Part shown: positions 11,490 to 52,182 of the stretch, piece by piece
How positions within the stretch are numbered: position 1 is the first letter of the stretch
Layout: every line of letters begins with the position of its first letter
Source: Marivibrio halodurans
Lineage (GTDB): Bacteria; Pseudomonadota; Alphaproteobacteria; UBA8366; Aestuariispiraceae
Direction: 5' to 3'
NCBI RefSeq assembly: GCF_017963645.1
Contig: NZ_JAGMWN010000007.1
Coordinates: forward strand, 1-64,000
DNA: 64,000 nucleotides
Position numbers and translations under genes: made by a program
The notes under the pieces: generated by a model
What the model saw: only the letters and a program-made list of their open reading frames with translations
What the model was told of the DNA's origin: nothing
Databases searched by the model: none

Positions 11490-13212
<1,723 letters not shown>

Positions 13213-21530: not shown

Positions 21531-22025
21531 ATGGAGAAGCCGGAACCGCCGATGGATCAGGACGCCGCCATGGATCGCGCCTTCGCGGAAGCCGAGGCCG
21601 CCGCCGCGCGCGGCGAGGTGCCGGTCGGCGCCGTCGTCGTCGAGGTTGGGACCGGCGCCATCCTCGCCGCCGCCGGCAATCGGACCGAGGCCGACCGCGA
21701 CCCGAGCGCGCATGCCGAAGTCCTGGCGATTCGCCGGGCCTGCGCCGCGCGGGGAGAGCCGCGCCTGCCGGATTGCGATCTCTATGTCACGCTGGAGCCT
21801 TGCGCGATGTGCGCGGGCGCGATCTCCTTCGCGCGGATCCGGCGGCTCGTCTTCGCGGCCTATGACCCCAAGGGCGGCGGGGTCGAGCACGGCGCGCGCT
21901 TCTTCGAGCGTGCGACCTGTCACCACGCGCCGGAGGTCGTGGGCGGTGTTCGCGAACGTCGCGCGGCGGACTTGCTCAAACACTTCTTCGCCGCCCGTCG
22001 AGACCCGCATCGCGACGCGGAATGA
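21531..22025 (+). CDS. tadA: tRNA adenosine(34) deaminase TadA
   Basis: This roughly 160-residue zinc deaminase makes inosine at the wobble position of tRNA-Arg(ACG). The zinc and catalytic motifs are complete: HAEVLAIRRA (His ligand and catalytic Glu) and LEPCAMCAGAISFARI (two Cys ligands). FAAYDPKGGGVEHGARFFER is typical of TadA. The start is uncertain: ATG at 21531 is used here, while ATG at 21552 and GTG at 21474 are also in frame. It is divergent from rluB. Confidence 0.92.
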   Translation: MEKPEPPMDQDAAMDRAFAEAEAAAARGEVPVGAVVVEVGTGAILAAAGNRTEADRDPSAHAEVLAIRRACAARGEPRLPDCDLYVTLEPCAMCAGAISFARIRRLVFAAYDPKGGGVEHGARFFERATCHHAPEVVGGVRERRAADLLKHFFAARRDPHRDAE

Positions 22026-22075
22026 TCGATCGTCCCGAGGTGGGCAGAAGAGGAGACACGGCGGTTGAGAGGTCG

Positions 22076-22126
22076 GTCCTGCGGCTCCCGCTTGAGGGTG
22101 GGGAGGGTCAGCGAGAGCCGCAGGAC
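22076..22126. other. 51-bp hairpin with G-rich loop
   Basis: GTCCTGCGGCTC (22076-22087) pairs perfectly with GAGCCGCAGGAC (22115-22126). The stem continues inward by CGCT and GA pairs with one mismatch and one bulge, for about 18 bp in total, leaving the loop GGGTGGGGAGGG. It begins 51 bp after the tadA stop. No T-run follows, so it may be a terminator of the alphaproteobacterial kind, a structured RNA or a dispersed palindrome. Confidence 0.5.
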
Positions 22127-22284
22127 GCCTCACGCCGGATCCGAGGACCCGGGTGAATGCTGGCGGGAAAGAACGGGATTGATCACGTCCCCCCACCGTA
22201 ATCACACTTAAGTATATTAGATGCACGCGCATTCCAAAAGAAGGGAATCACGTACCGAGGGGTTGGACTCGAAAAAACTTGCCC

Positions 22285-22496
22285 TAGAGTATGGCACGTT
22301 CATTCTGAACCGCCCGGGATCGGTTGTCCGGGCTTCCGGCCAGGAGAGGTCGGGCGGGCGATGTGGGGCCTCGTCGCGGGACGGCGCGGGCGGCGTCGCT
22401 CCGCTTTCCGAATGTTCCGCATCGCCGCGCGCGTCGCTCCTTGCCGGAACCGGAAACGGCGTCCCGGGCGGTTAAAAAATAGCGCGCCACATTCTA
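22285..22496. repeat. 212-bp imperfect palindrome (structured RNA or mobile palindrome)
   Basis: The two arms (about 22285-22367 and 22414-22496) are inverted copies. The best-kept block is AACCGCCCGGGA (22308-22319) versus TCCCGGGCGGTT (22462-22473). Outside it, TAGAGTATGGCACG on the left matches TAGAATGTGGCGCG read from the right; inside it, TTCCGGC, AGGAG and GCGATG recur in both arms in the same order. Several differences are transitions compatible with G-U pairing. Function is unknown. Confidence 0.5.
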
Positions 22497-22590
22497 ACGT
22501 CTGGACCTGCCGGCCGATCGTGGCACGATGGCGCGGAGAGACGGTACTTTCGAAGGGGGGAGGCCCCCCGCGCGAGGAGGAGACGACATC

Positions 22591-24069
22591 ATGGCGCTGA
22601 CGCGGCGACATTTCCTTCAGGTAGGCGCCTGCGGGGTGGGGGCGGGCTGCCTCGGTGGATGTGTCGGCACCAACCGCGCCACGGGTGACACGAGCTTCAC
22701 AGGACTGATGTCGATCGAGGACGACATCGCCATGGGGCGCGAGCAACACCCGAAGCTGGTGAAGGAGTTCGGTGGCGAGTACGAGAACGCCAAACTGCAG
22801 AGCTATGTCGAGCGGCTTGGCAACAAGGCGGCCGAATACGCGGAATATCAGGAGTTTCCGTACAAGTTCACCATCGTCAATTCGCCGATCATCAACGCCT
22901 TCGCGCTGCCGGGCGGATTCGTCTATGTCTCGCGCGGGCTGCTCAGCTACGCCTCCAACGAGGCGGAGTTGATGGGCGTTATCAGTCACGAGATCGGGCA
23001 TGTGAACGCGCGGCACACGGCGGAGCGTGTCGGCTCCACGCAACTGGCGCAGGGGCTCTTGCTTCTCGGCACCGTCGCGACGGGGTCGAGCGCCGTCGCC
23101 GATGTCGGGAGCAGCGTCGCGGGTCTCGTCCTGCAAAGTTTCTCGCGCGAGCAGGAATTCGAGGCGGACAGCCTCGGCATACGCTATATGAGCCGGGCCG
23201 GCTACGACCCGGATATGATGTCCACTTTTCTCTCGACCCTGCGGGAATACAGCCAGGTTCAGGCCAAGATCAACGGCAAGGACCCGAGCAGCGTGGACGA
23301 GACCAACCTGATGGCCACCCACCCGCGCACGGTCGAGCGCGTGCAGCGCGCCAAGGATCAGGCGGTAGGTACCGCGCCGAACGCGACCCTGGTCAATCGG
23401 GAACAGTTCCTGGGCCAGATCGACGGCATGCTCTATGGCGACGATCCATCGCAAGGCGTGATCGACGGCCAGACCTTCACCCATCCCGATCTGCGCTTCC
23501 GCTTCACCGTGCCGGAAGGTTTCACGATGCTGAACAGCCCGGAGCAGGTCGTCGCCTTCAACGAGGATCGCACCGTCTCCATCGTCTTCGACGGGGTAAC
23601 GGTCCCGGAGGGGCGGAACATGGCGACCTATCTACAACGGGATTGGTCGGGCGATGTCACCCTGCGGGATCTGGAGCCGATCGACGTGAACGGCATGCCG
23701 GGGGCGACGGGCTGGGCGCGCCTCAACGGTCAGCAGGGACAGGCGGATGTTCGCGGTGTCGCGATCCGCCACGGTGGCGATCAGGTCTATCGCTTCCGTT
23801 TCGTCACGCAGCCCCAGCAGACCGACGCCTTCAGCGAGCGGCTGCGCCAGACCACCTATTCCTTCGCCAGGATCTCGGCCGAGACGGCGAACGCGATCAA
23901 ACCGCACCGTTTGCTCGTCGTGCCCGTGCAGTCCGGTGATACGGTCGCGGGGCTGTCGAAACATATGCCGCACGGCCGCTATAACGAGGAAATGTTCCGC
24001 GTGCTCAATGATCTGGTGGACGGGCGTCCCTTGCATGCCGGTCAGTACGTCAAGACCATCGTCCTTTAG
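22591..24069 (+). CDS. M48 family metalloprotease, Tat/lipoprotein signal
   Basis: This 492-residue zinc protease has the HExxH motif HEIGH in AELMGVISHEIGHVNARHTA and the third ligand Glu in EQEFEADSLGIRYMSRAGYD. The N-terminus MALTRRHFLQ is followed by a hydrophobic stretch and LGGC, giving both a twin-arginine motif and a lipobox, so it is probably a folded outer-envelope lipoprotein exported by Tat. The C-terminal half (about residues 290-430) carries an extra beta-rich domain, and the last 55 residues (LLVVPVQSGDTVAGLSKHMP, LNDLVDGRPLHAGQYVKTIV) resemble a LysM-like module. It probably acts in periplasmic protein quality control, like BepA/LoiP relatives. Start chosen for the GAGGAGGAG site 8 bp upstream. 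Confidence 0.88.
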   Translation: MALTRRHFLQVGACGVGAGCLGGCVGTNRATGDTSFTGLMSIEDDIAMGREQHPKLVKEFGGEYENAKLQSYVERLGNKAAEYAEYQEFPYKFTIVNSPIINAFALPGGFVYVSRGLLSYASNEAELMGVISHEIGHVNARHTAERVGSTQLAQGLLLLGTVATGSSAVADVGSSVAGLVLQSFSREQEFEADSLGIRYMSRAGYDPDMMSTFLSTLREYSQVQAKINGKDPSSVDETNLMATHPRTVERVQRAKDQAVGTAPNATLVNREQFLGQIDGMLYGDDPSQGVIDGQTFTHPDLRFRFTVPEGFTMLNSPEQVVAFNEDRTVSIVFDGVTVPEGRNMATYLQRDWSGDVTLRDLEPIDVNGMPGATGWARLNGQQGQADVRGVAIRHGGDQVYRFRFVTQPQQTDAFSERLRQTTYSFARISAETANAIKPHRLLVVPVQSGDTVAGLSKHMPHGRYNEEMFRVLNDLVDGRPLHAGQYVKTIVL

Positions 24070-52002: not shown

Positions 52003-52067
52003 GAAAGGGCTCCGGGAACGGGTTTCCGATTATCCGCTGATAGCGCGTATGGCCCGCGGCCGCCAGG

Positions 52068-52182
52068 GCCAGCGGCCCTGCTTGATATCCGCCAGCGGCC
52101 CTGCTTGATATCCGCCAGCGGCCCTGCTTGATATCCGCCAGCGGCCCGGGTTGGCCCCCGCCAGCGGCCCGGCTTTGGGGTT
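52068..52182. repeat. 23-bp tandem repeat, five units
   Basis: Units starting at 52068, 52091 and 52114 are identical; units at 52137 and 52160 share the first 11 bp (GCCAGCGGCCC) and then diverge. The array lies between the CobW-like gene and the EamA gene. There are no spacers, so it is not CRISPR. It is a small minisatellite, probably of variable copy number. Confidence 0.85.

Follow-up and report, generated by a model that had tools for sequence, protein, structure and literature searches.

Upstream of the M48 protease gene of Marivibrio halodurans stands a long imperfect palindrome, and the question that it raises is what kind of object it is. The original prediction, made from the letters of the window alone (the whole stretch of 64,000 nt analysed here), had left three readings: a stand-alone, rod-shaped non-coding RNA resembling 6S RNA in outline, a palindromic mobile element, or an inverted duplication of a leader segment. 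We address the question here with the organism's own genome (G000), a sister genome (G001), three other related genomes (G005, G008 and G022) and wider samples of the order and the class.

Results

The 212-nt palindrome was confirmed with its ends exact (Table 1), and its MFE of -133.5 kcal/mol compares with a mean of -96.8 (sd 4.7) for shuffled sequences (z -7.87), none of the 200 shuffles matching it. The perfect 12-bp core, AACCGCCCGGGA/TCCCGGGCGGTT, was borne out, with starts at 22308 and 22462, and in self-alignment the arms are 69.7% identical, gaps included. The description of their differences as mostly transitions was partly right, the 106 positions of the ungapped register comprising 47 Watson-Crick, 14 G/T and 8 A/C combinations and 37 others; G-U pairs account for 9 of the 82 pairs in the predicted fold. 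As predicted, the palindrome lies upstream of the M48 gene, ending 94 nt before the likely start codon. It begins 259 nt 3' of a deaminase gene that is tadA-like by our reading of its Pfam hits, and it stands between these two genes and not on a stop codon. No Rfam family matched the palindrome at the gathering score, the 6S RNA model included, and a scan of 21900-22700 for sigma-70-like promoters, the one promoter type sought, found none.

Elsewhere in the window we noted a glycine riboswitch aptamer (Rfam RF00504, 45983-46091, plus strand, 54.3 bits), a match to RF02514, 5_ureB_sRNA (11642-11942, minus strand, 89.7 bits), which perhaps reflects no sRNA but simply the conservation of urease coding sequence, and a tandem 23-bp repeat, GCCAGCGGCCCTGCTTGATATCC, with diverged neighbours (52045-52182).

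Table 1. Features of the palindromic locus and its neighbours, in window coordinates.
Feature	Position	Strand	Remark
Whole element, TA...TA	22285..22496	+	212 bp, derived by internal deletion from an element of ~265 bp
Left terminal inverted repeat (TIR)	22285..22317	+	starts TAGAG
TA, presumed target duplication	22285-22286		context C/TA..TA/A
Module A remnant	22318..22386	+	5' stem, AGGAG motif and GGCGATG tip; 3' stem gone; limits taken from module coordinates in full elements (alignment)
Module B remnant, reverse-complement orientation	22387..22446	-	model positions 21-80 of 100
Right TIR	22462..22496	-	ends ATTCTA; TA at 22495-22496
Upstream neighbour, deaminase gene, tadA-like	21531..22025	+	Pfam matches; outside the element
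Downstream neighbour, M48 peptidase gene	22591..24069	+	likely start 22591; outside the element

Many dispersed copies would, according to the original prediction, count against an RNA gene, and a search of the own genome for such copies was positive. With 22200-22560 as query, 16 match rows were obtained at E <= 0.001, a total that includes the query and its inverted match to itself, and several of these rows represent two arms a small distance apart; the best DNA match of the window copy to another own-genome copy has an E-value of 2.9e-15. A full copy used as query gave 52 rows in G000, 8 in G001 and 18 in G005, both strands counted. Scans for the TIR patterns found 41, 7 and 75 matches of the TACCAA type in G000, G001 and G022, and 22, 13 and 2 of the TAGAGC type in G000, G001 and G005, the reversed-pattern controls of both scans giving 0 everywhere. 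Parsing yielded 68 elements with both ends (25 in G000, 5 in G001, 8 in G005, 1 in G008 and 29 in G022) once L191, an inner match within a TACCAA element, had been removed from the 69 rows printed. The parser required TA at both ends, and copies with one end lost or diverged were left out; L033, L035, L039, L096, L097 and several of G005 are examples from outside the 68. Unconstrained self-alignment likewise found inverted arms reaching the TIR ends at many loci.

The 68 elements are 117-316 bp long, too short for a transposase gene; 50 of them measure 260-316 bp and the remaining 18, the window copy included, are shorter deletion forms. Most are 260-277 bp; the TIRs end in TA, and the element carries no transposase gene. 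The order of a full element, about 260-277 bp in length, is TIR, module A, reverse-complemented module, TIR, the two modules being facing hairpins of ~98 nt, the second the same kind of hairpin in reverse complement, with the motifs TAGGAG, GGCGATGYGGNNCATCG and CGACGC. A covariance model of the module matched the module B remnant of the window at 29.5 bits (E 2.3e-4 for 198 kb searched) and gave 36 matches in the own genome, a count in which a single hairpin may appear on both strands. The window palindrome is a worn, internally deleted copy of this dispersed mobile element. A purely local inverted duplication of a leader segment does not fit, since related copies stand elsewhere. Copies lie end to end in G005 (L126, L131) and G022 (L030), and G001 holds minimal palindromes, TAGAGCCTGATGAT(A/G)TCATCAGGCTCTA, at L158 (~1330-1357) and L159 (~1319-1346), in which two TIRs are fused with no module between.

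The ends of the elements bear on how they insert. TACCAA-type elements have an identical flanking TNA on both sides in 31 of 44 cases, against an expected 0.35 if the two sides were independent (p 2e-6), and different TNA flanks in the other 13; this subtype makes target duplications. The TA-type elements start TAGAG or TAGTGTGG, and 23 of the 24 lie in a YTAR context. We infer that TA is presumably their target duplication, a reading that the YTAR context fits, the TA at both ends having been demanded by the parser itself.

Two IS630-family elements share the starts of these TIRs. The one in G005 is bounded by TAGAGCATGATGAT/TAGAGCGTGATGAT, TAGAGC-type ends that match over 14 bases, and in the G001 element the ends read TACCA and each is flanked by TAA, the five bases TACCA plus the TNA flank being all that it and the MITEs have in common. 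Both copies read are frameshifted. Our search turned up no intact transposase flanked by matching TIRs, the own genome showed only fragments, and G022, with its 92 module matches, gave no DDE_3 match. The IS630-type transposase fragments of the own genome lie at L138 (C11:276607-276741), close to a TACCAA-type element, and at C19:249713-250259. Two of its contigs, C7 and C18 (L140, L141), end in TACCAACTCTCGCTGATT followed by what appears by eye to be the start of one TACCAA-type IS630 transposase, and two others, C11 and C16 (L142, L143), begin inside palindromic elements. An intact helper transposase may hide in the assembly gaps of this genome.

Comparison with the sister genome shows sites with and without the element. 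In G001 the tadA and M48 neighbours are kept with no element between them, in a spacer that aligns only loosely; a AAGTATATT block at about 22208-22218, upstream of the element, seems common to the two spacers. At L116 the element stands between convergent genes in G001, and the same genes in G000 (C17) lack it. Read by eye, the left proteins end FYDLLTDCVGRL versus FYDLLVAQIRALS and the right ones DFVAERLGAG versus DFVAQRLGVV, near-equal ends from which it follows that neither gene has been shortened by more than one codon; the L116 spacer cannot be aligned base by base between the genomes, and the target is not readable there. At L104 the left protein ends RYGGAPEEV versus RYGGAEG in G001, where the L104 flanks are not syntenic. 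These comparisons yielded no empty site exact to the base. That the element is mobile is well supported, and the palindromic mobile element among the three original readings was the right one, given the dispersed copies, the TNA duplications or TA ends, the IS630-like TIR starts and the absence in the sister genome.

The part of the element that is held constant is the module. Twenty module hairpins put in one orientation align almost gap-free (alignment A1, 20 of the 52 hairpins in the module comparison, with rows W, L132 and L108 excluded). Changes on both sides are found in 28 of 35 pairs, 97.0% of cells are paired compared with 69.2 after shuffling, and the covariation score is 0.737 compared with 0.208 for shuffled alignments (0/500) and 0.085-0.145 for slid structures; the copies share ancestry, and these figures and the G-U counts overstate independence. 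The outer stem has been replaced wholesale between lineages with pairing retained, and the five tip pairs are invariant (tip CGATG..CATCG). The module hairpin is kept by compensatory changes while the stem sequence and the TIRs diverge.

The module is also oriented. By our tally the pairs of A1 hold 47 G-U and 2 A-C cells, 17 of the 47 falling in three columns. Each hairpin is more stable in its own orientation than as its complement (26/26 A and 26/26 B hairpins), with GU counts of 100 versus 51 and 77 versus 58. When whole elements were tested there was no strand preference among 41 oriented elements, a set that differs from the 68 through the parser rules (MFE lower on the plus strand in 20/41, Wilcoxon p 0.79; GU 239/4000 versus 235/3988); we take this test to be blind, since the two modules point towards one another, as they do in all listed pairs except L238, and treat the per-module comparison as the informative one. 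A wide alignment, using the best row of each of 38 loci, gave GU 71 and AC 9, with GU above AC at 25 loci, AC above GU at 2 and ties at 11, an excess that may be inflated by use of the best-scoring orientation. Of the original idea of an RNA gene, the stand-alone 6S-like gene is unsupported, and what stands is that the internal module shows strong, oriented, RNA-like covariation. The G-U excess may also reflect deamination of cytosines in an exposed strand, or folding of single-stranded DNA.

The module is spread widely and patchily. In the order sample 19 of 43 genomes match the covariance model at E <= 0.001, in each of four families, with 0 to 92 matches per genome (a hairpin can match both strands), often with none in close relatives and with patchy presence between sister genomes. 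In the sample of the class Alphaproteobacteria 36 of the 385 genomes have a match at E <= 1e-6, spread by our count over 23 families; E-values of the model are rough, and this search scored 10 candidates per genome. Among 57 loci of relatives that were read, 39 have a TIR pair, 32 of these measuring 259-276 bp. Their TIRs are highly varied, 28 of the 39 starting TAG where TA at the ends was required, and they differ widely between lineages while the module stays common.

Exact stop-codon positions are in excess among the parsed elements. An element end forms or adjoins the exact stop codon of a called gene in 38 of the 68 (15/24 of the TA type, 23/44 of the TACCAA type), on both sides in five TA-type elements, and no parsed element was flagged inside a called gene, the gene caller being a simple one based on codon use. 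The null shares span 0.08-0.31. At noncoding sites TNA coincides with a stop in 100/777 cases in G000 (28/152 in YTNAR context) and 32/406 in G022 (9/86 in YTNAR context), compared with 11/15 TNA-type elements in G000 and G001 (p 5e-6) and 12/29 in G022 (p 2e-5). TA in a YTAR-like context does so in 26/110 cases in G000, G001 and G008, compared with 12/16 TA-type elements there (p 2e-5); in G005 the TA-type elements are not significantly on stops (3/8, p 0.11). In convergent spacers only, the counts are 11/11 against a null of 12/75 for the TA type and 8/9 against 38/124 for the TNA type, both nulls being from G000. Each of these nulls applies at most two of the three restrictions, namely noncoding position, YTAR/YTNAR context and convergent spacer, and the TNA and convergent nulls for these comparisons come from G000 alone, the observed elements also from G001 and G008. 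Among the 39 relatives' loci a frame of at least 60 codons closes at the element end in 24, a count that has no null and includes several elements already counted among others, in a set where L239 and L240 seem to stop before their true ends and both L277 and L284 are uncertain.

A duplicated in-frame TNA stop was a stop before insertion. Domain coverage and the L116 comparison matter because a TA-type insertion inside a gene could also create TAG. We scanned 25 of the 28 listed stop-at-element proteins, none of them from G005 or G022. A Pfam match was found in 24 (the miss being L107), and in 17 of the 25 the domain ends no more than 20 residues from the C-terminus. Examples are UDG (ending at residue 216 of 219) and SmpB (159 of 161), whose genes flank a single element, and also DSBA (196 of 199) and an RsmB-type domain (454 of 456); at L118 the domain spans only the first 108 of 461 residues, and completeness is not readable in this way. 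Judged by domain coverage, most of the scanned genes look full length. At five loci in G022 (L180, L181, L195, L197, L200) and at L118 in G001 the called neighbour continues for 16 nt within the TACCAA-type TIR before it reaches its stop, insertions that may have altered a C-terminus.

Discussion

Our data indicate that the palindrome is very probably a degenerate, non-autonomous IS630-type MITE of a kind that is moved in trans into a TA or TNA target, whose module is kept by compensation and many of whose copies sit on stops. The TIR starts are common to broken IS630-family elements, and for this reason the element is best called an IS630-type MITE. An IS630-family transposase would move it in trans, the targets being TA in a YTAR context or, for the TACCAA subtype, TNA. 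A TA target followed by the element's own G would rebuild TAG, and a duplicated TNA would rebuild TAA or TGA, the host gene staying whole in either case. The window copy itself is a decayed relic, probably immobile, and need not do anything.

The stop positions would reflect target preference combined with the survival of harmless insertions: TA and TNA are presumably rare inside GC-rich genes, and with harmful insertions lost the survivors would concentrate on stops. Whether that scarcity and that loss are the entire explanation of the stop coincidence is, in our judgment, evenly poised. IS630 is said, in the title of one paper, to prefer CTAG as its target, and the lack of parsed elements flagged inside genes points the same way, as does the over-representation of repeats between convergent genes in pneumococcus, according to the available part of PMC3049150. 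Against this, the enrichment persists when the null keeps just noncoding sites, sites in YTAR/YTNAR context or convergent spacers, in no case all three at once.

The conservation of the module could be due to a role in transposition, to a 3'-UTR RNA role for the gene that reads into the element, or to neutral palindrome repair. The second of these would make the module a putative bidirectional 3'-UTR RNA element, in which the sense hairpin met first protects the mRNA end, processes it or terminates transcription, and whose copies at gene ends persist through their benefit to the host. Better folding of all A and B hairpins in their own orientation, the G-U over A-C excess of A1, the facing modules and the positions at stop codons and between convergent genes favour such a role; we nevertheless hold it unlikely, as inspection showed no U-tract, patchy presence between sister genomes fits a parasite, and the G-U excess, partly from three columns and counted over copies of shared ancestry, is explicable by cytosine deamination or single-stranded DNA folding. 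Also unlikely is an ancient class-wide mobile 3'-end cassette that homes to stops harmlessly and supplies either gene of a convergent pair with the same sense module directly after its stop, with the module selected and the TIRs and helper transposases exchanged.

Template-switch correction of quasi-palindromes is a known process, and during replication it could hold the arms complementary neutrally, with no selection on the fold. It would account for stems whose sequence has been exchanged wholesale while the two sides stay complementary, yet the conserved unpaired motifs, the oriented G-U excess and the near-fixed module length are not predicted by it, and we regard it as improbable. A stand-alone non-coding RNA gene, a 6S-like rod with its own promoter, is extremely improbable and was rejected, since set against the very stable fold and the RNA-like covariation of the module family there are the lack of any Rfam match at the gathering score, the negative scan for sigma-70-like promoters, the many dispersed copies and the absence of the palindrome at the orthologous G001 site.

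The IS630-type MITE that we favour resembles several known repeats, and it was not described in the literature searched, a search that left subscription papers mostly outside. IS630 elements insert into TA and duplicate it, according to the part of PMC2170065 available; the TNA duplication of the TACCAA subtype differs from this, and yet the G001 IS630-family element is itself flanked by TAA on both sides. The closest parallel is RUP of Streptococcus pneumoniae (107 bp, with the TIRs of IS630-Spn1), which in the accessible text of PMC2229807 is likewise short and non-autonomous, with TA termini and IS630-like TIRs, and which is likewise over-represented between convergent genes (PMC2229807 and PMC3049150, each in part). 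As described there RUP is one 107-bp repeat, unlike the 260-277-bp elements reported here with two facing modules, many TIR types and a class-wide distribution. In the same portions of PMC3049150, pneumococcal BOX provides 36 genes with the stop codon at their very 3' end, with no strong sign that the genes are truncated, and SPRITE lies close to gene 3' ends, a gene-end position that our element has in common with it; BOX is modular and SPRITE U-rich, and no TNA duplication is described for them in those portions, unlike the element here. The CIR repeats of Caulobacter and Brucella are alphaproteobacterial and intergenic, with two stem-loop arms and TA termini, as here (PMC2229807, in the part available). 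By that partial description CIR are ~110 bp with GANTC in the terminal loop, which sets them apart from our element with its invariant tip lacking GANTC; any GANTC at all occurs in 18 of the 68 elements. QMITE2 of Coxiella burnetii, a MITE mainly in 3' untranslated regions according to the available part of PMC10969869, is likened to our element by description only. REP/BIME, units of 20-40 nt with a RAYT transposase, are set apart by unit length from elements that are mostly 260-277 bp.

The usual view of a bacterial MITE is that it derives from a single insertion sequence and is short-lived. Here one folded module occurs in 23 sampled families, by our count, in company with differing TIRs, the feature by which a MITE is defined, and this raises the question of what keeps the module. 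The exact landing on stops shows how a genome parasite can occupy the ends of genes and leave the genes intact. Should the module act at the level of RNA, 3'-UTR structure would be among the things that a mobile element supplies.
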